Source of the DNA: Halobacteriales archaeon QS_1_68_17
GTDB lineage: Archaea; Halobacteriota; Halobacteria; Halobacteriales; Haloarculaceae
Assembly (NCBI GenBank): GCA_003021105.1
Contig: PXRG01000008.1
Span: 1-64,000, forward strand
Direction: 5' to 3'
Length of the DNA: 64,000 bases
The number at the start of each line of letters is the position of its first letter. The first letter of the stretch is position 1. A model generated the notes under the pieces. The model was not told where the DNA came from, did not search any database, and saw only the letters and a program-made list of their open reading frames with translations. The position numbers and the translations under genes were made by a program. This document shows positions 26,900 to 53,776 of this stretch, in pieces.

Positions 26900-27901
26900 T
26901 CACCCGCGACGGTGCCGGGCGATGCGGGCGGCGGTCGCAACGGCGTCGATCATGCTCCGTTCCGAGGCGACCCCGTCGCCGGCGATATCGAAGGCGGTAC
27001 CGTGGTCGACGCTCGTCCGGACGATGGGGAGTCCGACGGTGACGTTGACGCCGCTGACGGCCGCGTCCCGGGCGAAGCCGAGCATCTTGATCGGGATGTG
27101 GCCCTGGTCGTGGTACATCGCAACGACGCAGTCGTAGTCGCCGCCCGCGGCCGCCGCGAACACCGTGTCCGGCGACGCCGGGCCGTGGACGTCGAGCCCA
27201 TCGGCCCTGGCGGCCTCGACGGCCGGTTCGATCTCGCGGGCCTCGGTCTCCCCGAGGAGGCCGCCGTCGCTGGCGTGTGGGTTCAGCCCGGCGACGGCGA
27301 TGCGGGGGTCGTCGACGCCCAGTTCGGCGAGCGCGTCCGCGGTCACTTCGACGGTCGACCGCACGCGGTCGGCGGTGACGTACTCGCAGGCCGCCGGCAG
27401 GGAGACGTGGGTGCTGACGTGCGTGACCCGGAGGTCGTCCTCGATCAACATCATCGCGTAGTCGTCGGTCCCGGTCCGGTCGGCCAGGAGGCCGGTGTGG
27501 CCGGCGTGGGTGCTCCCGGCGAGCCGCGTGGCCTGTTTGTTGATCGGGGCCGTGACGATCCCGTCGATCGAGCCCTCGACGGCCAGGTCGACGGCCCGCT
27601 CGACGTACTCGAGGCTCGCGCGCCCGTACTCCTCGCGCAACTCTCCGAAGGCGAGGTCGTCGACGTTGTCGAGGTCGAGGACGTCGATCGTTCCGGGGGC
27701 GAACGACGCCGCCGACACCGACGAGACCGGCCGGACCGCCAGCGAACTGTCACACAGGGCGATAGCCTCCCTGATGACGTCGGCGTCGCCCACGACCACG
27801 AGGTCGGCGTGGTCCCTGGCCGCCGCGAACGCCTTGACGATCACCTCGCTGCCGATGCCTGCCGGGTCACCCATGGTGAGCCCGAGTATCGGGTCATCCA
27901 T
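26900..27901 (-). CDS. PdxA-family 4-phospho-hydroxyacid dehydrogenase (PdxA2-like)
   Basis: LGLTMGDPAGIGSEVIVKAF, APINKQATRLAGSTHAGHTGLLADRTG, MYHDQGHIPIKMLGF; adjacent to DUF1537 kinase. Confidence 0.9.
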   Translation of the reverse strand: MDDPILGLTMGDPAGIGSEVIVKAFAAARDHADLVVVGDADVIREAIALCDSSLAVRPVSSVSAASFAPGTIDVLDLDNVDDLAFGELREEYGRASLEYVERAVDLAVEGSIDGIVTAPINKQATRLAGSTHAGHTGLLADRTGTDDYAMMLIEDDLRVTHVSTHVSLPAACEYVTADRVRSTVEVTADALAELGVDDPRIAVAGLNPHASDGGLLGETEAREIEPAVEAARADGLDVHGPASPDTVFAAAAGGDYDCVVAMYHDQGHIPIKMLGFARDAAVSGVNVTVGLPIVRTSVDHGTAFDIAGDGVASERSMIDAVATAARIARHRRG

Positions 27902-29153
27902 CGCTCGACAGATGGGCGAGCGCCGATATGACTGTTGTGCTCTCGCCGAACCCGCCGGCCTTGGTGACGACCGGGATGCCGTCGAAGGTCCCGCCGTCGA
28001 CCACCCCCACCGGGACCCCGGCGGCGACCGCGTCGCCGGTGAGTTCGACCGCACCGGCTCCGCCGGCCGACAGGACCGCCGCGGCGACCGCGCCGCCGGT
28101 CAGCACGAGGCCGTCGACGCGCGATTCCGCCCGGACCAGCAGGGCCGTCCGCGCCAGCGCCGCCGCGATCCGGTCGCCCGCGGTCGCCCGCGAGACGCCC
28201 GCCTCCCTGGCGGCCGCCGTCGCGGCCTCGACGGCCGACGCGTCGGGGACGGACGTGACGACGGCCGGCTCGTCGGCCCGGAGGCGCTCGATCGCCGCCG
28301 GGGCGGTCCGCTCCGCGGCCGTCTCGGGATCGCGGACCGCCGCCGCCACCGGGAGCGCGACGACCGCCTCGTCCGGGACGGCGTCGACCTGGGCGCGCGT
28401 CTCCGCCGCGGTGCTTCCGGCGACCGCGAGCACCCGCGGGCCGGCCGCCGACCACGACGCGGGACCGCGCGCGGCGTCCGGGAGCGGCACGTGCGGGGCG
28501 AGGCCGCCGCTGCCGACGAACAGCACGTCCCCGCGGCCGTCGACGGCCCCCGCGGCGGCTTCGAGGTGGCTGTCGTGGATCGCGTCACAGACCGCCAGTC
28601 CCGGCCCGTCTGCCTCGTCCGGCAGGGCCCGGGCGACGGCGGCCGGTCCGCGGGCGACCCGGTCGATCCCGACCCGCTCGACGGCGGCCGTCGAGTCCGC
28701 GAACACCTCGTCGAGTCGCCACGAGGACGGCCGGGCCGCCGCCCCGTCGTCGAGCCAGTCGGTCACCGGCCGGCCGTCGACGAGGTGGGTCCCGCAGGCG
28801 GTCGCCCGGCCGGTCGCGGGAAAGGCCGGCGCGACCACCGCGAGGGTCGCCCCGGCGGCCGCCATCGCGGCGTCCGTCTCGGCGACGACGTTGCCCCGGA
28901 GCGTCGAGTCGACCTTCTTGTAGACGGTCGCCGCGTTCCGGCGCTCGACGGCGGCGCGCACGCGCGCGACCGCCTCGTCGGCCGCGGCCTCGCGGCTGTC
29001 CGTGTCCACGACCACCACGCCGCCGGGCGAGGGGTCGTCGTCGGCTAGCGGGACGACGACCCGCCGTCCCCGGACGGCGAACGCGTGTCCCGTGTCGAGC
29101 GCGCCGGTGAGGTCGTCGGCGACGACCAGGCCGTCCCAGGGCGACCCGGTCAT
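27894..29153 (-). CDS. Four-carbon acid sugar kinase family protein (DUF1537)
   Basis: VVADDLTGALDTGHAFAVRG, YKKVDSTLRGNV, overlaps pdxA start by a few nt. Confidence 0.9.
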   Translation of the reverse strand: MTGSPWDGLVVADDLTGALDTGHAFAVRGRRVVVPLADDDPSPGGVVVVDTDSREAAADEAVARVRAAVERRNAATVYKKVDSTLRGNVVAETDAAMAAAGATLAVVAPAFPATGRATACGTHLVDGRPVTDWLDDGAAARPSSWRLDEVFADSTAAVERVGIDRVARGPAAVARALPDEADGPGLAVCDAIHDSHLEAAAGAVDGRGDVLFVGSGGLAPHVPLPDAARGPASWSAAGPRVLAVAGSTAAETRAQVDAVPDEAVVALPVAAAVRDPETAAERTAPAAIERLRADEPAVVTSVPDASAVEAATAAAREAGVSRATAGDRIAAALARTALLVRAESRVDGLVLTGGAVAAAVLSAGGAGAVELTGDAVAAGVPVGVVDGGTFDGIPVVTKAGGFGESTTVISALAHLSSDG

Positions 29154-41807: not shown

Positions 41808-41844
41808 GGAACGACGTGACCGGCGGTTTACCAGGTGTCGTACC
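41808..41844. repeat. 37-bp direct repeat, copy covering AKR stop codon
   Basis: Identical to 41734-41770, offset 74 bp. Confidence 0.85.
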
Positions 41845-42859
41845 GGCCATCGATTCCGCGCGCGGGCGCGGACTCGATGCCGGCGAACGGGCCGGGTTTG
41901 GCGGCCGCGAGCCGGTCGAACTGGTCGTCGGTCAGCGACACGTCGGCCGCGGCGAGGTTCTCCTCTAGCTGGGCGACGGTGCGCGCGCCGACGATGGGGC
42001 CGGTCACCAGGTCGTGGTGGAGATGCCAGGCGATGGCGACCTGCGCGGGCGAGGCACCGACCTCGTTTGCGACCGCCCGGAGGACGTCGAGTGCCGCGAA
42101 GTTCTCGTCGGAGAGGTACTTCTCGGCGAAGCGGTCGTCCTCCGCGGCCCGGGAGTCGACCGACGAGACGTCGTCGCGGTCGTACTTCCCCGTCAGGAAG
42201 CCCTCCCCGAGCGGGCTCCAGGGGACGACGCCGAGGTCGTACTCGGCGCACATCTCCAGGTACGGCCCCTCGATCTCCCGGTCGACGAGGTTGTACCGGG
42301 GCTGGACGACGGTGAACGGTTCGTAGCCGTACTCGTCGGCGACGGCGTTGGCCCGGACGACCTTCCAGGCGTTGGGCCAGAGCGTCGACGACCCGAGGTA
42401 GTTGACCCGGCCGGACTCGACGAACCCGTCGAGCGTGCGCACGAACTCCCGGACCGGCGTGGCGTCGTCCCAGCGGTGGATGTACAGCAGGTCCAGGTAG
42501 TCGGTCCCCAGCCGATCCAGGATCAGGTCGATCTGCCGGCGGAGGTGTTTCCGGCCCAGGCCCCGCCCGTTCGGTTCGCCCGTCCGGACCGGCCAGTAGA
42601 TCTTCGAGGCGATCACGAACTCCTCGCGGTCCCGGTCGGCGAGCCACTCGCCGATCCACCGCTCGCTTTTCCCGCTGCCGTACATGTCGGCGGTGTCGAT
42701 GAAGCGGCCGCCGGCCGCCTCGTAGGCGTCCAGGAGTTCGTGTGCGCGCTGGCAGTCGATCTCGACGTTGCCCGCGTCGGTCTCGCGGCCGAACCGCCAG
42801 GTCCCGAAGGGCAGTTCGCTGACCATCGTCCCGGTCCGACCGAGGGGTACGTAGTCCAT
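41828..42859 (-). CDS. Aldo/keto reductase
   Basis: MDYVPLGRTGTMVSELPFGTWRFG, FIDTADMYGSGKSERWIGEWL, start at 42859. Confidence 0.92.
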   Translation of the reverse strand: MDYVPLGRTGTMVSELPFGTWRFGRETDAGNVEIDCQRAHELLDAYEAAGGRFIDTADMYGSGKSERWIGEWLADRDREEFVIASKIYWPVRTGEPNGRGLGRKHLRRQIDLILDRLGTDYLDLLYIHRWDDATPVREFVRTLDGFVESGRVNYLGSSTLWPNAWKVVRANAVADEYGYEPFTVVQPRYNLVDREIEGPYLEMCAEYDLGVVPWSPLGEGFLTGKYDRDDVSSVDSRAAEDDRFAEKYLSDENFAALDVLRAVANEVGASPAQVAIAWHLHHDLVTGPIVGARTVAQLEENLAAADVSLTDDQFDRLAAAKPGPFAGIESAPARGIDGRYDTW

Positions 42860-43126: not shown

Positions 43127-44629
43127 ATGTTCATCGGAATCGACATCGGTCACACGAACGTCAAGGCCGTCGCCTACGACGCGGACTGGACCGTCGCGGG
43201 TGTACACGGGATCGAAGGGGGGATGATCCACCCGAGCGACGACCGGACGGAGATCCCAATCGAGCAGCGGTGGGAGATCGTCCTGGAGTGTCTCGACGAA
43301 CTCGAAAGCGACGTGGACGGGGAGATCGAGGGAATCGGGCTGGCCGGCGGCGGCGGGGGACTCTACCCGCTCGGCGCAGACGGGGAGCCGGCGATGAACG
43401 GGGTCCCCTTGCTGGACGAACGGACCAGAGGGGGGCTGTTCGACCGGTGGGACGACGACGGGACCCGCCGGCAGATCTCCGAGATCACGGGCATCCCGCT
43501 GCCGCCCGGGGGCGTGCTCATCATGCTCCGCTGGCTGAAGGAAAACCAGCCCGGAACGTACGACGACATCGCGCACGTGCTCAACCTCAAGGACGCCGTG
43601 CGCTACCGGCTCACGGGCGAACTCGCAAACGAGATCAGCGACGCGACCTTCAGCCTCACGAACCACCGGACCCAGGACTACGACCACGAACTGTTCGAAC
43701 TCGCGGGGGTCACGGAGAAGTGGGACGCCCTGCCCGAGTTGAAGTCGGCGAGCCACGAGGTCGCCGGGCACGTCACCCCCGAGGTCGAGCGGGAGACCGG
43801 CATCCCGGCGGGGACGCCCGTCGTGGCCGGCGCACACGACGCCTGTGCCAACACGCTCGGGGTCGGGGCGCTCGGCGCGGACACCGTCACGACCGCGGGC
43901 GGGACGTGGTCGCTGAGCACGATGGCGCTGGACGAACCGGCGGTCGCGCTCGATAGCTGGTGTTGCGAGAACTTCCTGGAGCGCGGGACGTGGATGCTCG
44001 AAATCTCGACGCCGACCGGGACGGTCTCGCTGGACTGGTTCGTCGAGGACTTCTGCGATCCCGAGCGCGAGCGGGCCGAACGCGAGGACAGGGCGATCTG
44101 GGACGTCATCGAGGAGAAGATCGCCGGCGTCGAGACCAACGCCGTCTTCCACCCGTTCCTGTTCGGGAACCCGTGGGGGTACCTCTACCAGGACAACGCC
44201 TCGGGGAGTTTCACCGGCCTGCGGCCGACCGACGGCCGGATCGAGATGCTCCGTGCGGTCTACGAGGCCATCGCGTTCATGCACCGCTGGCAGGTCGACC
44301 TCTACGACGAGGCCTTCGGCGTCGAGGAGGTCCGGTTTACCGGCGGGGCCGCCCGGAGCGACTTCTGGGCGGAGATGTTCGCCGACGTGATGGACAAACC
44401 GGTCGTCGTCACGGAGAAAGCCGAGTCGGGCTGTTTCGGCGCGGCGATGCTGGCGGCCATCGGCGTCGGGGAGATCGACGGCCTGGACACGACGGCGTCG
44501 CTGGTCGAGATCGACGAGGTGTACCGCCCGGGCGAGACCGACTACGACCCCAAGTACAGGAGCTTCAGGACCCTCGCCGGCCGCATGGAGGGAGTCTGGG
44601 ACGAACACGACGCGCTCCGGAGCCGGTAG
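43127..44629 (+). CDS. FGGY-family carbohydrate kinase
   Basis: MFIGIDIGHTNVKAVAYDADW, GTPVVAGAHDACANTLGVGA, VRFTGGAARSDFWAEMFADVM. Confidence 0.92.
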   Translation: MFIGIDIGHTNVKAVAYDADWTVAGVHGIEGGMIHPSDDRTEIPIEQRWEIVLECLDELESDVDGEIEGIGLAGGGGGLYPLGADGEPAMNGVPLLDERTRGGLFDRWDDDGTRRQISEITGIPLPPGGVLIMLRWLKENQPGTYDDIAHVLNLKDAVRYRLTGELANEISDATFSLTNHRTQDYDHELFELAGVTEKWDALPELKSASHEVAGHVTPEVERETGIPAGTPVVAGAHDACANTLGVGALGADTVTTAGGTWSLSTMALDEPAVALDSWCCENFLERGTWMLEISTPTGTVSLDWFVEDFCDPERERAEREDRAIWDVIEEKIAGVETNAVFHPFLFGNPWGYLYQDNASGSFTGLRPTDGRIEMLRAVYEAIAFMHRWQVDLYDEAFGVEEVRFTGGAARSDFWAEMFADVMDKPVVVTEKAESGCFGAAMLAAIGVGEIDGLDTTASLVEIDEVYRPGETDYDPKYRSFRTLAGRMEGVWDEHDALRSR

Positions 44630-44790: not shown

Positions 44791-46269
44791 ATGTCAGATA
44801 AACGGCTACAGAGGCGTAAGTTCATCCAGTCGACAGGTGCCGCGGCGGGCATCGCCGCCATTGCCGGCTGTACCGGCGATGGTGGCGACGGTGGCAGCGG
44901 CGACGGTGGCGGCGGCGACGGTGGCGACGGTGGCGGCAGCACGAGCACGCCGCCGGGCGAGGACGTCGAACCCGCCGACAAGATCCAGTTCATCTCGGAG
45001 TCGACGCCGCCGAGCAAGGCGCTGAAGTCGATCATCAGCCGCTTTACCGACGAGACGGGCATCGAGGTGGAGTTCACGCTCACTCCGCTGCTCAACTACA
45101 CGGAGAAACTGGCGAACGACCTCACCAGCCAGGCGGGCAACTTCGACGCCGTCTACGTCGACCCGTACAACATCGGTGCCCCGTACTATCCGGATCTGGA
45201 ACCCCTCGACGCCTACATCGAGGACAACAACTACGACATGGACGACCACATCCAGATCCACATCGACGCGTGTTCGGTCTACGAAGAGGACGGGACGGTC
45301 AGGGGGCTCCCCTACGACTGTCCGACGATCACGCTGGCCTACCGCCAGGACGTCTTCGACGAGTACGGCGAGCAGGCCACGAGCGACCTCGGGTTCGAGG
45401 CCGAGCCCAACCCCGACATGACCTGGTCGCAGTACATGGAGGTCGCCAGGTGGATCAACGAGAACGTCCCAGACGACATGGTGGAGTACGGGACGGGGCA
45501 TATGGCCAAGCAGCACCAGTCGCTGGCCAACGAGTTCGAGATGATCCAGTGGGCCTTCGGCGGGACACAGCTCACGGGCTTCGACGGGAAGGACCCGATC
45601 CTGCCGGACGACATCTCGGCCGGATTCACCGACGACGCCTCCATCGAGGCGGCGGAATTCTACACCGAACTGGTCGGCGAAGTCGCCCACCCGGGCAGCA
45701 CGACCTGGAACTGGACGGGCGTCGCCCAGGCGTTCGCCAACGGCAAGATTGCCATGGCACCCGAGTGGCACGAGTTCAACGGCCTGTTTGCAGACACCGA
45801 GTCGAGCGTGGTCGCCGACAAGGTCAGCTGGACGCTGGCCCCGTCCGGTCCCGCCGAGAACCGGAACGTCCAGGCCCACTACGGCGGGAGTAGCATCGGC
45901 ATCAACGCCCACACCTCCGACGCCAAGAAGAAGGCCGCGTGGAAGTTCATCGAGTGGACCACCTCGCCGGACATCCAGTTCGAACTGCTGAAGGCCGCGG
46001 GCGGGACGCCGACCCGCCAGTCCGTCTACGACCGCAGCGAGGTCAAGGAGGCCAGCCAGGCCCAGACCGCCGAGAGCAAATACCCGAACGTCGTGCCGCC
46101 GGTGCTCGAAGCCTGGAAACAGGAGAACATCGGCCAGCGCCCCCACCACCCCGACTGGCTCCAGCTCGAGCAGGTCATCTACACCGAGGGCTCGAAGATG
46201 GTCAACGGCGACCAGTCGCCCGAAGCCACCATGCAGGCCTGCGCCGACGGCTTCAGCAGCATCCTGTAA
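44791..46269 (+). CDS. ABC transporter sugar-binding protein
   Basis: RRKFIQSTGAAAGIAAIAGCTG lipobox; family 1 extracellular binding protein. Confidence 0.92.
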   Translation: MSDKRLQRRKFIQSTGAAAGIAAIAGCTGDGGDGGSGDGGGGDGGDGGGSTSTPPGEDVEPADKIQFISESTPPSKALKSIISRFTDETGIEVEFTLTPLLNYTEKLANDLTSQAGNFDAVYVDPYNIGAPYYPDLEPLDAYIEDNNYDMDDHIQIHIDACSVYEEDGTVRGLPYDCPTITLAYRQDVFDEYGEQATSDLGFEAEPNPDMTWSQYMEVARWINENVPDDMVEYGTGHMAKQHQSLANEFEMIQWAFGGTQLTGFDGKDPILPDDISAGFTDDASIEAAEFYTELVGEVAHPGSTTWNWTGVAQAFANGKIAMAPEWHEFNGLFADTESSVVADKVSWTLAPSGPAENRNVQAHYGGSSIGINAHTSDAKKKAAWKFIEWTTSPDIQFELLKAAGGTPTRQSVYDRSEVKEASQAQTAESKYPNVVPPVLEAWKQENIGQRPHHPDWLQLEQVIYTEGSKMVNGDQSPEATMQACADGFSSIL

Positions 46270-46353: not shown

Positions 46354-47325
46354 ATGGTCGAACACCAACGCACGACGGAGGTCTCCGGCGTTTCGACCGA
46401 CGCGTACGTCGGCGAGGAGCCGGACGACACGGGGGAATCGATCCTGGAGTCGCTACCCATCTCCTTCGAGATGGTGCTGCTGGCACCCAGCATCATCACA
46501 CTGGCGATCCTGAGCATCATCCCGCTGGTGGTGATCATCTGGCTGTCGTTCATGGAGATCAACTTCACGCCGGTGAACGAACAGATCTTCGTCGGCCCCC
46601 AGAACTACGCCGACATGGTCAATAACGGCAACGTCTGGGACGCCTGGAAGGCCACGGTCGTCTACGTCGGCGGGTCGCTATCGCTTCAGCTCGGGCTCGG
46701 CATCCTCATCTCGGTGATGCTCCACCGGGTCATCGTGGGCGAGAACGTGTTCACGAGCATCGTCATCATGCCGATGATGATCGCGCCGGTGGTCGTGGGG
46801 TTGCTCTGGCAGTTCCTGCTCGATCCCACGTTCGGGCTGTATACGTACATGATGAACCAGATCGGACTGTTCATCAACCAGCCGATCCTGGGGGACCCGA
46901 ACAGTGCGATGGCGGCGCTGATCCTCATGGACACCTGGCAGTGGACGCCGCTGATCGTGCTGATCGTGCTGGCGCAGCTCAAGTCGATCCCGGAACACCT
47001 CTACGAGGCCGCGCGCGTGGACGGGGCGACCGGGTTCACCCAGTTCCGGTACGTGACGCTCCCGCTGTTGAAACCCGCCATCGCCATCGCCCTGCTGTTG
47101 CGGTCGATGGACCTGATGCGGTACTTCGCGAAGGTGTTCATCACGACGGGCGGCGGTCCGTCGAACACGACGAAGATCATCGGCCTCTACGTCTACGAGC
47201 AGGGCCTGCGCTTTTTCAACCTCGGCTACGGCTCCGCGGTCGGGCTGGTGATGCTCGTGGTCACGATCCTGATGGGACTTGCCTTCGTCGAGATGATCAT
47301 GGGAGGTGCCGGCGACAATGAGTAA
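46354..47325 (+). CDS. Carbohydrate ABC transporter permease (MalF-like)
   Basis: YEAARVDGATGFTQFRYVTLPLLKPAI. Confidence 0.93.
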   Translation: MVEHQRTTEVSGVSTDAYVGEEPDDTGESILESLPISFEMVLLAPSIITLAILSIIPLVVIIWLSFMEINFTPVNEQIFVGPQNYADMVNNGNVWDAWKATVVYVGGSLSLQLGLGILISVMLHRVIVGENVFTSIVIMPMMIAPVVVGLLWQFLLDPTFGLYTYMMNQIGLFINQPILGDPNSAMAALILMDTWQWTPLIVLIVLAQLKSIPEHLYEAARVDGATGFTQFRYVTLPLLKPAIAIALLLRSMDLMRYFAKVFITTGGGPSNTTKIIGLYVYEQGLRFFNLGYGSAVGLVMLVVTILMGLAFVEMIMGGAGDNE

Positions 47326-48169
47326 GGCGAACCAGTCGACCGCGTTGCCCAGGCCGATCAGGCGGTACGGCCCGCTGGCCGTGCTGGGCGTGTTCTCGCT
47401 GTGGACGCTCGTCCCGCTGTTCTGGATGTTCCTCTCGTCGCTGAAGATCCGGAAGAGCATGTTCGAGTTCCCGCCGACGATCATCTTCGACCCCACGTTG
47501 CGGTACTACCAGGACATGTTCCTGGGATCGAACCCGGTGACGCCGTTCCTGGCAAACAGCGTGATCGTCGCGCTGGGGACCGCCGTGCTCTCGGTCGGGC
47601 TGGGCACCGTCGGGGGCTACGGCCTCTCCCGGCTCGACCTCCGCGGGAAGAAACACCTCGCGTTCTGGATCATCAGCACCCGGATGGCCCCCATCGTCGT
47701 CGTCGTGATCCCGCTATTCTACGTCTACAAGACCGCGGGGCTGTTGAACACCCACGTCGGGCTCATCATCGCCCACACGACGTTCAACCTCCCCTTCGCC
47801 ATCTGGCTGATGCGCTCGTTCTTCGACGAGGTGCCCGTGTCACTGGAGGAGGCGGCGATGATCGACGGGGCGACGCGGTGGCAGGCCTTCCGAAAGGTGT
47901 CGCTCCCCCTGGTGTTGCCGGGGATGGGCGCGACCGCGATCATCGCCATCGTCTTCTCGTGGAACGACTTCATCTTCGCGTTGATCTTCACCAGCAACGC
48001 GACCCAGACGATGCCCGTCGCGGCGTCGCAACTGGTCACACAGACGGGGACGCTGTGGGGACAGGTGATGGCCACCGGGGTCGTGATCCTGCTCCCGATG
48101 GTGACCTTCGGCGTCATCGTCAAGAAGTACCTCGTCAGCGGCCTCACGATGGGGGCGGTCAAGGAATGA
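47318..48169 (+). CDS. Carbohydrate ABC transporter permease (MalG-like)
   Basis: EEAAMIDGATRWQAFRKVSLPLVLPGM; start 47318 overlaps previous stop. Confidence 0.93.
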   Translation: MSKANQSTALPRPIRRYGPLAVLGVFSLWTLVPLFWMFLSSLKIRKSMFEFPPTIIFDPTLRYYQDMFLGSNPVTPFLANSVIVALGTAVLSVGLGTVGGYGLSRLDLRGKKHLAFWIISTRMAPIVVVVIPLFYVYKTAGLLNTHVGLIIAHTTFNLPFAIWLMRSFFDEVPVSLEEAAMIDGATRWQAFRKVSLPLVLPGMGATAIIAIVFSWNDFIFALIFTSNATQTMPVAASQLVTQTGTLWGQVMATGVVILLPMVTFGVIVKKYLVSGLTMGAVKE

Positions 48170-48230: not shown

Positions 48231-49406
<1,176 letters not shown>

Positions 49407-49970: not shown

Positions 49971-50993
49971 ATGTCAACAGACCTGCCTATCGTCGGCGTC
50001 ACCATGGGTGACCCGGCAGGGATCGGGAGCGAGATCATCGTGAAAGCCTACCCACAGGTGTTCGACGCGGCCCGGCCGGTCGTACTCGGGGACTTTGACG
50101 TGATGGCAGACGCCGTCGCCGCCTGCGAGAGCGACCTCGACCTGCGCCGCGTCGAGACAGTCGACGAGGCGCGCTTCGAGACCGGGGTGCTCGACGTCGT
50201 CGACTTCGACAACCTCGACGAGGTCGTGCGGGGCGAACACCGCGGCGAGTACGGGCGGGCCAGCCTCGACTACGTCGAACACGGGATCGAACTCGCCACG
50301 TCGGGAGCCATCGACGCGATGTGCAACGCGCCCATCAACAAGAAGGCCCTGGAGATGGCCGGCAGCGACTACGCCGGCCACACGAACCTGCTGGCCGACC
50401 GCACCGGGACCGACGAGTACTCGATGTTGCTCATCCAGGACGAACTCCGGGTCACGCACGTCACGGTCCACATGTCCCTCCAGGAGGCCATCGACACGAT
50501 CACGACCGAACGGGTGCTCGAAACCATCGAGGTCACCGACGAGGGACTCCGGGGCCTGGGGATCGAGGACCCGTCGATCGCGGTCTGTGGCCTGAACCCC
50601 CACGCCGGCGAGGGGGGCGTGCTCGGGACCACGGACGCGGAGGAGATCGAACCGGCCGTCGAACGGGCGCGGGACGCGGGGATCGACGCCTCCGGTCCGT
50701 GGGCCGGGGACAACATCTTCAACCAGGCCGCCGTCGGTCGGTTCGACGGGGTCGTCGCCATGTACCACGACCAGGGTCACATCGCCACCAACGTCCACGG
50801 CCTCCTCCCCAGCGGGGGTTTCGCCGGCGTCAACATGACAATCGGACTGCCCATCGTCCGCACGAGCACGACACACGGGACCGCCTTCGACATCGCCGGG
50901 ACGGGCATCGCCGACGAGGACAGCATGGTCGACGCGATCCGGGCGGCCGCGCGGGCCGCGGAGGCCGGGATGGCCGGGACGGCTGCCGACTGA
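49971..50993 (+). CDS. PdxA-family dehydrogenase, second paralog (PdxA2-like)
   Basis: VGVTMGDPAGIGSEIIVKAYPQ, APINKKALEMAGSDYAGHTNLLADRTG, MYHDQGHIATNVHG. Confidence 0.92.
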   Translation: MSTDLPIVGVTMGDPAGIGSEIIVKAYPQVFDAARPVVLGDFDVMADAVAACESDLDLRRVETVDEARFETGVLDVVDFDNLDEVVRGEHRGEYGRASLDYVEHGIELATSGAIDAMCNAPINKKALEMAGSDYAGHTNLLADRTGTDEYSMLLIQDELRVTHVTVHMSLQEAIDTITTERVLETIEVTDEGLRGLGIEDPSIAVCGLNPHAGEGGVLGTTDAEEIEPAVERARDAGIDASGPWAGDNIFNQAAVGRFDGVVAMYHDQGHIATNVHGLLPSGGFAGVNMTIGLPIVRTSTTHGTAFDIAGTGIADEDSMVDAIRAAARAAEAGMAGTAAD

Positions 50994-50999
50994 CCGCGC

Positions 51000-51725
51000 T
51001 CACAGCGCCTGGTGGTCGCCGCCGTCGAGGTGGAACTCGTGGCCGGTGACGAACCCGTCCTGGAACAGGAGGTAGTCGAGCACGCCCATAACGTCCTCGT
51101 ACTCCGGCGTCCGCCGGAGCGGGGGGCTCTGCTCTTCCTCTTTCATGATCTCCTCGACCGTGGTGTCGCGGGCGCGCGCCCGCCGGACGTGCGTGACGGT
51201 ACCGTCACGTTCCGTGGCGACGACATCACGCAGGTGGCCACGGAGGACATCGCCATCCGCGGGGTCGGGCTCGTCCCCGGAGGCGGTCACGACGACGTGG
51301 GCGGTGTCGTCGCCCGCCACCAGCAACGGGGCCGACTCCGAGACCGTCAGGTACACGCCGTTGAGGTTGACGTCGATCACCTGCTGCCAGTCCTCGTAGC
51401 TGGTGTCGGCCAGTTCGACCGGCCCCGAGATGCCGGCGTTGGCGAACAGGTAGTCCAGTCGGCCGTAGTCGGCCTCGACGGCCGCGACCATCCCGGCGAC
51501 CGAGGACTCGTCGGTCACGTCCACGAACGTCCCCCGGGCGTCCCCGCCGTCGTCCTCGATCCCGGCGGCGACGTCGCGGGCCGCCGACTCGTCGACGTCC
51601 GCGAGCACGACGGCGACCCCGTGGCGAGCGAGCCAGCGGCCGATCTCCGCGCCGATGCCGGATCCGCCCCCCGTCACCAGGGCGACGCGACCCGCTCCGC
51701 GCTCCGAGTGGTCGGTAGCGTCCAT
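51000..51725 (-). CDS. SDR-like protein lacking the catalytic YxxxK segment
   Basis: VTGGGSGIGAEIGRWLARHG, NAGISG, DVNLNGVYLTV present; region expected to carry YxxxK replaced. Confidence 0.8.
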   Translation of the reverse strand: MDATDHSERGAGRVALVTGGGSGIGAEIGRWLARHGVAVVLADVDESAARDVAAGIEDDGGDARGTFVDVTDESSVAGMVAAVEADYGRLDYLFANAGISGPVELADTSYEDWQQVIDVNLNGVYLTVSESAPLLVAGDDTAHVVVTASGDEPDPADGDVLRGHLRDVVATERDGTVTHVRRARARDTTVEEIMKEEEQSPPLRRTPEYEDVMGVLDYLLFQDGFVTGHEFHLDGGDHQAL

Positions 51726-51807: not shown

Positions 51808-52464
51808 TCAGTTCGTCTGGCCGTAGTCCGCGAACCGCTCGATGAGGGTGTCGATCTCCTCGTCGGGCAACAGCGCGGGCTCGCCGACGTTGAGCGCCTG
51901 GTAGTGGATGCGGGCGCAGTACTCGGTCATCAGCGCCACCTCGAAGGCGGCCTCCGTGTCCTCGCCGACCGCGAGGACGCCGTGGTTCTTCAGGAGACAG
52001 GCGTTGTACTCGTCGCCGAGCGTCTCGATGGCCAGTTCGGCCAGTTCCTCGGTGCCGTAGGTGGTGTAGTCGGCCACCGGCACCTTGTCGCCGACGAACG
52101 CGATCAGGTAGTGGGAGGCCGGGATCGGTTCGGCGATGCTGGCGAAGGTGGTCGCGTACGGCGAGTGGGTGTGGACGACGCCGCCGACGTCGTCGCGCTC
52201 GCGGTGGACGGTCGTGTGCATCGCGATCTCGCTGGACGGTTCCCGGTCGCCCACGACCGTCTCGCAGTCGAAGTTCACGACCGGGACGTCGGCGGGCTCG
52301 ATCTCGTCGTAGGCCATCCCCGAGGGGCTGATGGCGACCGTGTCGTCGCCGACGCCCTCGCTGATGTTGCCGCCGGTGCCGGTGGTCAGTCCCCGGGAGA
52401 GCATCTGCCGGCCGAGTTCGCTGACGGTTCGCCGCTGGTCGAAGTGCTGGAGTTCGTCTGCCAT
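51808..52464 (-). CDS. Class II aldolase/adducin family protein
   Basis: LTTGTGGNISEGVGDDTVAISPSGMAYDEI, VVHTHSPYATTFA, LLKNHGVLAVG. Confidence 0.92.
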   Translation of the reverse strand: MADELQHFDQRRTVSELGRQMLSRGLTTGTGGNISEGVGDDTVAISPSGMAYDEIEPADVPVVNFDCETVVGDREPSSEIAMHTTVHRERDDVGGVVHTHSPYATTFASIAEPIPASHYLIAFVGDKVPVADYTTYGTEELAELAIETLGDEYNACLLKNHGVLAVGEDTEAAFEVALMTEYCARIHYQALNVGEPALLPDEEIDTLIERFADYGQTN

Positions 52465-52624: not shown

Positions 52625-53776
52625 ATGCGCGTGACCGACTACGAACTGTTCGCCGTGCCGCCCCGGTGGCTGTTTCTGAAGCTGACCACCAGCGACGGGA
52701 CCGTCGGCTGGGGCGAACCGATCCTGGAGGGACGGACGGAGACCGTCCGGGCGGCCGTCGCGGAGTTGGTCGAGGACTTCGTGCTCGGGGGCGACCCCGC
52801 GGAGATCGAGCGCCACTGGCAGCGGTGTTACCGGGGCGGCCACTACCGCGGCGGGCCGGTGTTGATGAGCGCCATCGCGGGCATCGACCAGGCGCTCTGG
52901 GACATCAAGGGCCGGCAGTTCGGCGCTCCGGTCTACGAGTTGCTCGGGGGCCGGGCCCGCGACCGGGTCCGGGTCTACCAGTGGGTGGGCGGCGAGCAGC
53001 CGGCGGAGGTTGCCGCCGACGCCGAGCGGGCCGCGGCGGCCGGCTACTCGGTCGTGAAGATGATGCTCAGCGCCCGGTCGCACGAGCGCGACCGGGAGAA
53101 ACTCGTCCGGACCGGCCGCGAACGGCTCCGCGCGGTCCGGGAGGCGGTCGGCGACGAGGTCGACGTCGCGGTCGACTGCCGGGGCCGGATCAGCAAGTCG
53201 AAGGTGACCCGCCTGGCGTCGGCCATAGAGGAGTTCGAGCCGCTCTTCCTGGAGGAACCGGTGTTGCCCGAACAGAACGAATCGCTGGCGTCCATCGCCC
53301 CCGAGATCGACATCCCCGTTGCGACCGGCCAGCGGCTCTACTCCCGGTGGGAGTTCACCGGCCTGCTCGAGAACGACGCCGTGGGGATCGTCCAGCCCGA
53401 CATCTCCCACGCCGGCGGCATCTCCGAAGTCCGGAAGATCGCCGCCATGGCCGAGGCACACGACGTCTCGCTGGCCCCGAAGTCGCCGGTCGGTCCCATC
53501 TCCCTGGCCGCCTGTCTCCAGGTCGACTTCTGTACCCCCAACGCCGTCCTCCAGGAGCAGAACCTCGACGTCCACGAGACGACCGACAACGAACTGCTCC
53601 GGTACCTGGCGAACCCGTCCGCGCTCGCGGCCGAGGGTGGATTCCTCGAACCGCCCGACGGCCCCGGCCTCGGCGTCGAGATCGACGAGGCGTACGTCCG
53701 CGACCAGGCGGAAAAGGAGGTCCGCTGGCAGACCCCGCTGTGGTACAACGAGGACGGGAGCGTCGCCGAGTGGTGA
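52625..53776 (+). CDS. Mandelate racemase/muconate lactonizing family protein, galactonate dehydratase-like with altered active site
   Basis: Collinear with DgoD-type enzymes (LFLEEPVLPEQNE.., DISHAGGISEVRKIAAMAEAHDVSLAP.SP.GPISLAACLQVD, PLWYNEDGSVAEW). Confidence 0.88.
   Translation: MRVTDYELFAVPPRWLFLKLTTSDGTVGWGEPILEGRTETVRAAVAELVEDFVLGGDPAEIERHWQRCYRGGHYRGGPVLMSAIAGIDQALWDIKGRQFGAPVYELLGGRARDRVRVYQWVGGEQPAEVAADAERAAAAGYSVVKMMLSARSHERDREKLVRTGRERLRAVREAVGDEVDVAVDCRGRISKSKVTRLASAIEEFEPLFLEEPVLPEQNESLASIAPEIDIPVATGQRLYSRWEFTGLLENDAVGIVQPDISHAGGISEVRKIAAMAEAHDVSLAPKSPVGPISLAACLQVDFCTPNAVLQEQNLDVHETTDNELLRYLANPSALAAEGGFLEPPDGPGLGVEIDEAYVRDQAEKEVRWQTPLWYNEDGSVAEW

Follow-up and report, generated by a model that had tools for sequence, protein, structure and literature searches.

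The gene at positions 52625-53776 of the window, by which we mean the whole 64,000-nucleotide stretch of Halobacteriales archaeon QS_1_68_17 DNA that was analyzed, encodes a paralogue of D-galactonate dehydratase (DgoD) that, judged from its sequence, is very unlikely to be a galactonate dehydratase itself. This assessment follows from its replaced catalytic residues, its position in a clade of altered paralogues, its operon and a changed PdxA-family partner. We favor the interpretation that the protein, termed DgoD' here, is a neofunctionalized enolase-superfamily enzyme that derives from a haloarchaeal D-galactonate dehydratase and has its role in another acid-sugar pathway. An old enzyme has probably given rise to a new one here, and we give a probability of about 0.6 to the reading that it is active, is not a galactonate dehydratase and forms part of a kinase/aldolase pathway.

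The reading frame is open, begins with ATG and shows a GC3 of 0.94 and an acidic composition. Its product contains the Pfam domains PF02746 and PF13378 (MR_MLE N- and C-terminal) of the enolase superfamily, with the MR/MLE fold, and matched PRK14017, the curated galactonate dehydratase model of NCBIfam, with 546 bits (cut-off 311). The top-ranking relative of solved structure was 3rr1, a putative D-galactonate dehydratase from Ralstonia pickettii, with a phmmer score of 420 bits across residues 3-383. The active sites of the two proteins aligned without gaps, dFHGR, GERM and APHCP of 3rr1 facing dCRGR, GQRL and APKSP of DgoD'. The earlier note had read the changes from VDFHGR to VDCRGR, APHCP to APKSP and GERM to GQRL, and these motifs were confirmed exactly. 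The lysine that it placed at the position of the His base is K286, opposite the His of APHCP in 3rr1, and the change from GERM to GQRL, described there as a motif change, corresponds to the substitution of the third metal-ligand Glu by Gln, Q236. A shifted alignment that would put the His residues elsewhere, named in the note as a test, could be excluded since there is no gap near the active site.

The relevant motifs of DgoD' are VD184-C-R186-GR, E210-E-P, GQ236R, QPD259 and APK286SP. Based on the roles in E. coli DgoD, where the acid/base His pair was reportedly assigned by Wieczorek in 1999, a study cited in PMC11219438, we take positions 186, 236 and 286 to be the general acid, the third metal ligand and the general base. 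In DgoD' the general acid His is changed to R186 and the general base His to K286, with the paired Asp D259 present, while the substitution by Q236 leaves the set of three carboxylates at the ends of strands 3, 4 and 5 incomplete. The metal ligands D184 and E210, the dyad Asp D259 and the strand-8 Glu E311 are retained. Further changes are N to M147, F to C185, YN to ET318-319 and H73 in place of F73; N147, F73, Y318 and N319, all four altered here, are also conserved in canonical DgoD. The candidate acid/base groups are K286 on one face and, on the opposite face, R186 as the sole obvious one. An alignment-based AF2 model of DgoD' reached a pLDDT of 91.2 and a pTM of 0.92 (prediction from the single sequence, pLDDT 37), and its best Foldseek matches were 3rr1 and the Mg-bound 3rra, with TM values of 0.91-0.92. 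Given the confident model and these nearest solved structures, the fold is predicted to be intact.

H186, E236 and H286 are each 100% conserved in 112 canonical relatives from haloarchaea and bacteria. The combination R186/Q236/K286 occurred in all three K-type sequences, those of the window, Haloplanus ruber (L031) and Haloplanus G281 (L114), which also have D184, E210, D259 and E311 unchanged. The window protein is 72% identical to the two Haloplanus K-types, and the genomes were sequenced independently; because the three residues are identical in both Haloplanus genomes, they result neither from sequencing error nor from chance. Between the two Haloplanus genes dN was 0.014 and dS 0.226 (dN/dS about 0.06), similar to the neighboring PdxA gene of the same pair (dN 0.021, dS 0.172); the values for the window versus H. 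ruber were 0.19 and 0.87. The low dN/dS shows that the K-type gene is under purifying selection. Together with the identical changes in two other genomes, it rules out a pseudogene as well as a sequencing error. Apart from the two Haloplanus copies, no K-type turned up in 392 genomes of the order, in 170 from the Haloplanus family and 146 from the window's family, in PLSDB plasmids or in GTDB contigs. Since such wide searches added no members, the K-type branch is rare, with a total of three sequences in the data searched.

The genes around DgoD' in the window are as follows.

41828-42859, minus strand: aldo/keto reductase, 84% identical to the H. ruber copy in the same place
43127-44629, plus strand: FGGY carbohydrate kinase, immediately preceding the transporter; its N-terminal sequence resembles the FGGY kinase beside the same PdxA type in genomes G284 and G082
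44791-46269, plus strand: sugar-binding lipoprotein of an ABC transporter
46354-47325, plus strand: ABC transporter permease
47306-48169, plus strand: ABC transporter permease
48231-49406, plus strand: CUT1-type ABC transporter ATPase
49971-50993, plus strand: PdxA-family dehydrogenase with the motif HDQGHIATN, about 80% identical to its Haloplanus counterpart
51000-51725, minus strand: short-chain dehydrogenase (SDR) with a Rossmann N-terminus, lacking YxxxK
51808-52464, minus strand: class II aldolase (FucA/ribulose-1-phosphate aldolase type) with the catalytic E and the HTH motif
52625-53776, plus strand: K-type DgoD paralogue DgoD', 383 aa
53832-54587, plus strand: IclR-type regulator directly downstream of DgoD', sharing 54% identity with the IclR that follows the Haloplanus K-type gene

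The order binding protein, two permeases, ATPase, PdxA, DgoD' and IclR is the same in the window, H. ruber and G281, and in both Haloplanus genomes a rhamnulokinase-like FGGY kinase and an aldo/keto reductase adjoin the transporter. The class II aldolase of the window shares 59-71% identity with those found next to R-type DgoD', the Arg/His paralogues described below. Unlike in the window, no class II aldolase was found within 17 kb around the Haloplanus K-type copies; a DhnA-type aldolase lies in their surroundings and a PfkB-like kinase is also near. The SDR of the window shares only 27-42% identity with the SDRs of the other loci compared. Two class II aldolase domains occur in a single 447-aa ORF beside an R-type DgoD' (L169, 8072-9415), and a similar tandem adjoins the R-type DgoD' of L171/L125.

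The neighborhoods of 12 K- plus R-type loci were compared with those of 36 canonical haloarchaeal dgoD loci. An FGGY kinase was present at 11 of 12 K- and R-type loci and at 0 of 36 canonical ones, and a class II aldolase at 8/12 versus 0/36 (Fisher 5e-10 and 1e-6, respectively, both ignoring shared ancestry). PdxA was likewise confined to the former (5/12 versus 0/36), whereas KDPG aldolase was seen at 12 of the 36 canonical loci and at none of the 12 others; no KDG/KDPG aldolase stood beside K- or R-type copies. KDG kinase was found in 6/36 canonical neighborhoods. Canonical haloarchaeal DgoD, for example of Halorubrum and Haloferax, is known to lie beside KDG kinase and KDPG aldolase (PMC3102087). 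None of the three K-type loci had the De Ley-Doudoroff neighbors KDGal kinase or KDPGal aldolase, which a distant locus could supply. An IclR regulator always stands beside the K-type gene.

The partner PdxA is altered as well. The Lys of its HDQGxxxK motif, which we take to be a substrate-contacting residue, is replaced by Asn in the window and by Tyr in both Haloplanus partners, while the metal-binding His residues are kept. A PdxA without this Lys stands beside the K-type gene in all three genomes, and related ones are found in G082 and G284, where they adjoin an FGGY kinase and, in G284, also lie near an RQH-type DgoD'. The PdxAs with Tyr or Asn (window 49971-50993; L180, L181, L183, L184) form a small haloarchaeal subgroup located near FGGY and not DUF1537 kinases. 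Nearly all other haloarchaeal PdxAs compared, including a second one in the window, keep the Lys; a further exception, with Phe, stands beside an R-type DgoD' in G219. The absence of the Lys and the presence of an FGGY instead of a DUF1537 kinase suggest that decarboxylation precedes phosphorylation. The second window PdxA belongs to a minus-strand locus at 26915-29153, where a D-threonate-kinase-like (DUF1537) gene is its neighbor and an ABC transporter and an IclR gene lie close by; this is probably a four-carbon acid-sugar operon.

Haloarchaeal DgoD paralogues have radiated into several types with changed active sites, REN, RQK, REH/RQH and RGQ (residues 186/236/286), and K-type genes are one branch among them. 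In a maximum-likelihood tree built without the catalytic columns, the altered paralogues formed one clade inside haloarchaeal DgoD (bootstrap 95, SH-aLRT 94), and the K-type and the R-type, or Arg/His type, were sister groups (support 99/80). Arg186 changed at least two times on the best tree; a single origin across R-, N- and K-types was not rejected (AU p 0.31). R-type proteins have R186 (Ser in one), H286 and sometimes Q236, giving the forms REH, RQH and SEH; most keep His286, E311 is lost and D259 sometimes so. Since this pattern differs from that of the K-type, the same reaction cannot be assumed for both. In the N-type (L071, L075, L138-L167 and others), D147, R186, E236, N286 and D311 were found in 32/32 sequences. 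Its neighbors, a SelA/DgaE-like PLP enzyme, an LmbE-like deacetylase, a RidA-like protein and a glucose-dehydrogenase-like enzyme, suggest a role in amino-sugar-acid breakdown. The clade also includes L070, L074 and L078, in which both His are kept and EQP or DQP replaces EEP at the second metal-ligand site; these genes adjoin a class II aldolase or ABC transporters. The window organism has a second DgoD paralogue (G000 contig 22, 9139-10287; L113, L115) with R186/G236/Q286, an active site eroded further, which adjoins an FGGY kinase and apparent genes of a 2-oxo-acid dehydrogenase complex. A very divergent paralogue on a long branch, in Haloplanus G233 (L111/L117, 46% identity), carries Gly where canonical DgoD has its third metal ligand, and QPS instead of QPD.

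How DgoD' might work can be proposed from the retained residues. D184, E210 and perhaps Q236 would bind a metal in a fold that also keeps D259 and E311, so that a carboxylate substrate could still be enolized at C2, with K286 replacing His as the likely base. As R186 takes the place of the acid that expels the 3-OH, dehydration would be disfavored and the enediolate would be reprotonated, a proton transfer without elimination. DgoD' could then be a C2 epimerase or a similar enzyme that gives the right isomer to PdxA, a tentative assignment that we consider rather improbable in this specific form. Oxidation and decarboxylation of the acid by the PdxA-type enzyme would give a ketose, which the FGGY kinase would convert to the ketose-1-phosphate; from this the class II aldolase would produce DHAP and glycolaldehyde (or lactaldehyde), and a reductase would remove the released aldehyde. 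The aldolase step has an experimentally established counterpart in haloarchaea, where ribulose-1-phosphate aldolase yields DHAP and glycolaldehyde (PMC9700705). The complete scheme, a new haloarchaeal "decarboxylate first, phosphorylate later" route with a Lys-based DgoD' epimerase (aldonate to epimer, to ketose and CO2, to ketose-1-phosphate, to DHAP and a small aldehyde), is somewhat less probable again than the epimerase assignment. Several points count against the favored reading. Epimerization normally requires a second acid/base on the opposite face, for which R186 is the only obvious group; we know of no precedent for a Lys at this end of the seventh strand in the role of base; Gln binds metal less well than Glu; and no class II aldolase lies in the 17 kb surrounding the Haloplanus genes.

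Instead of an epimerase, DgoD' may still be an acid-sugar dehydratase, acting on another aldonate or on an amino- or deoxy-aldonate. K286 would be the base, R186, water or H73 would aid the leaving of the 3-OH, and the 2-keto-3-deoxy product would enter the local pathway. Many enolase-superfamily dehydratases use differing acid/base pairs, most of the barrel is retained along with D184, E210, D259 and E311, and the DhnA-type aldolase and PfkB-like kinase near the Haloplanus copy would suit this explanation. However, the general acid is gone in both K- and R-types, a KDG/KDPG aldolase is absent from all 12 of their loci, and a PdxA-type enzyme requires a 3-hydroxy acid, whose hydroxyl group a 3-deoxy product lacks. 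We therefore regard a dehydratase for another substrate as unlikely. A pseudoenzyme acting as a sensor, or scaffolding PdxA, the aldolase or IclR, is a little more doubtful still. The replacement of three central catalytic or metal positions, one metal ligand included, and the constant adjacency of IclR are consistent with it, but the same specific replacements recur across genera instead of being scattered, D184, E210, D259 and E311 are unchanged in all three K-types, and the dN/dS is as low as in the enzyme neighbor PdxA. An ordinary D-galactonate dehydratase that tolerates the changes is suggested by the NCBIfam score and can practically be dismissed, as the replaced His pair is the one reportedly assigned as acid and base in E. 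coli and the De Ley-Doudoroff genes are missing from the operon.

The favored reading of DgoD' as a neofunctionalized enzyme thus agrees with the proposal of the earlier note that chemistry or substrate differ from D-galactonate dehydration, which is supported by the replacement of all three essential side chains in a lineage under purifying selection, the altered paralogue clade, the switched neighborhood and the PdxA replacement. Since the three defining DgoD residues are absent, DgoD' is not classed here as a galactonate dehydratase. The case is a warning as well, since automated annotation would give this name to all these paralogues because the family model far exceeds its cut-off; plasmid-borne relatives of DgoD' are annotated in this way, and the N-type probably would be. 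In the enolase superfamily, misannotations of proteins that lack a functionally important residue form a recognized class (PMC2781113). We found no description of an altered DgoD variant or of a comparable pathway in the open-access literature. The superfamily is one of the main models of how new reactions arise on a single fold. In the series HEH, REH, RQH, RQK, REN and RGQ, the catalytic His, Glu and Asn positions change stepwise together with the pathway, so that the order in which this happened can be put to the test, and the conserved operon provides a concrete, testable hypothesis for a new sugar-acid pathway of halophiles.

Compared with known systems, DgoD' shares with DgoD (PRK14017; mandelate racemase subgroup of the enolase superfamily; 3rr1/3rra) the fold, the length, 49% whole-chain identity, D184, E210, D259, E311 and the C-terminal SVAEW. 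It differs in the His to Arg acid, the His to Lys base, the Glu to Gln ligand, the substrate-side positions N147, F73, Y318 and N319 and the operon context. Canonical haloarchaeal DgoDs are the closest canonical sequences (57-63% identical), yet they keep H/E/H without exception and lie in De Ley-Doudoroff neighborhoods. The R-type paralogues (REH, RQH, SEH; RGQ in the window's own genome) resemble the K-type as its sister clade, in Arg186 (Ser in one), in the FGGY kinase/class II aldolase neighborhood and, for some, in E236Q, whereas most of them keep His286 and they lack E311 and sometimes D259. With mandelate racemase and other epimerases of the superfamily, DgoD' would share proton abstraction alpha to a carboxylate and a metal-stabilized enediolate, but it lacks both the KxK base of the second strand (K-M-M) and the His of the seventh. 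Finally, the D-threonate/D-erythronate pathway (DtnK-PdxA2) likewise relies on the oxidative decarboxylation of a hydroxy acid by a PdxA-type enzyme, whereas the window PdxA, without the conserved Lys, is paired with an FGGY kinase and not with a DUF1537 kinase.
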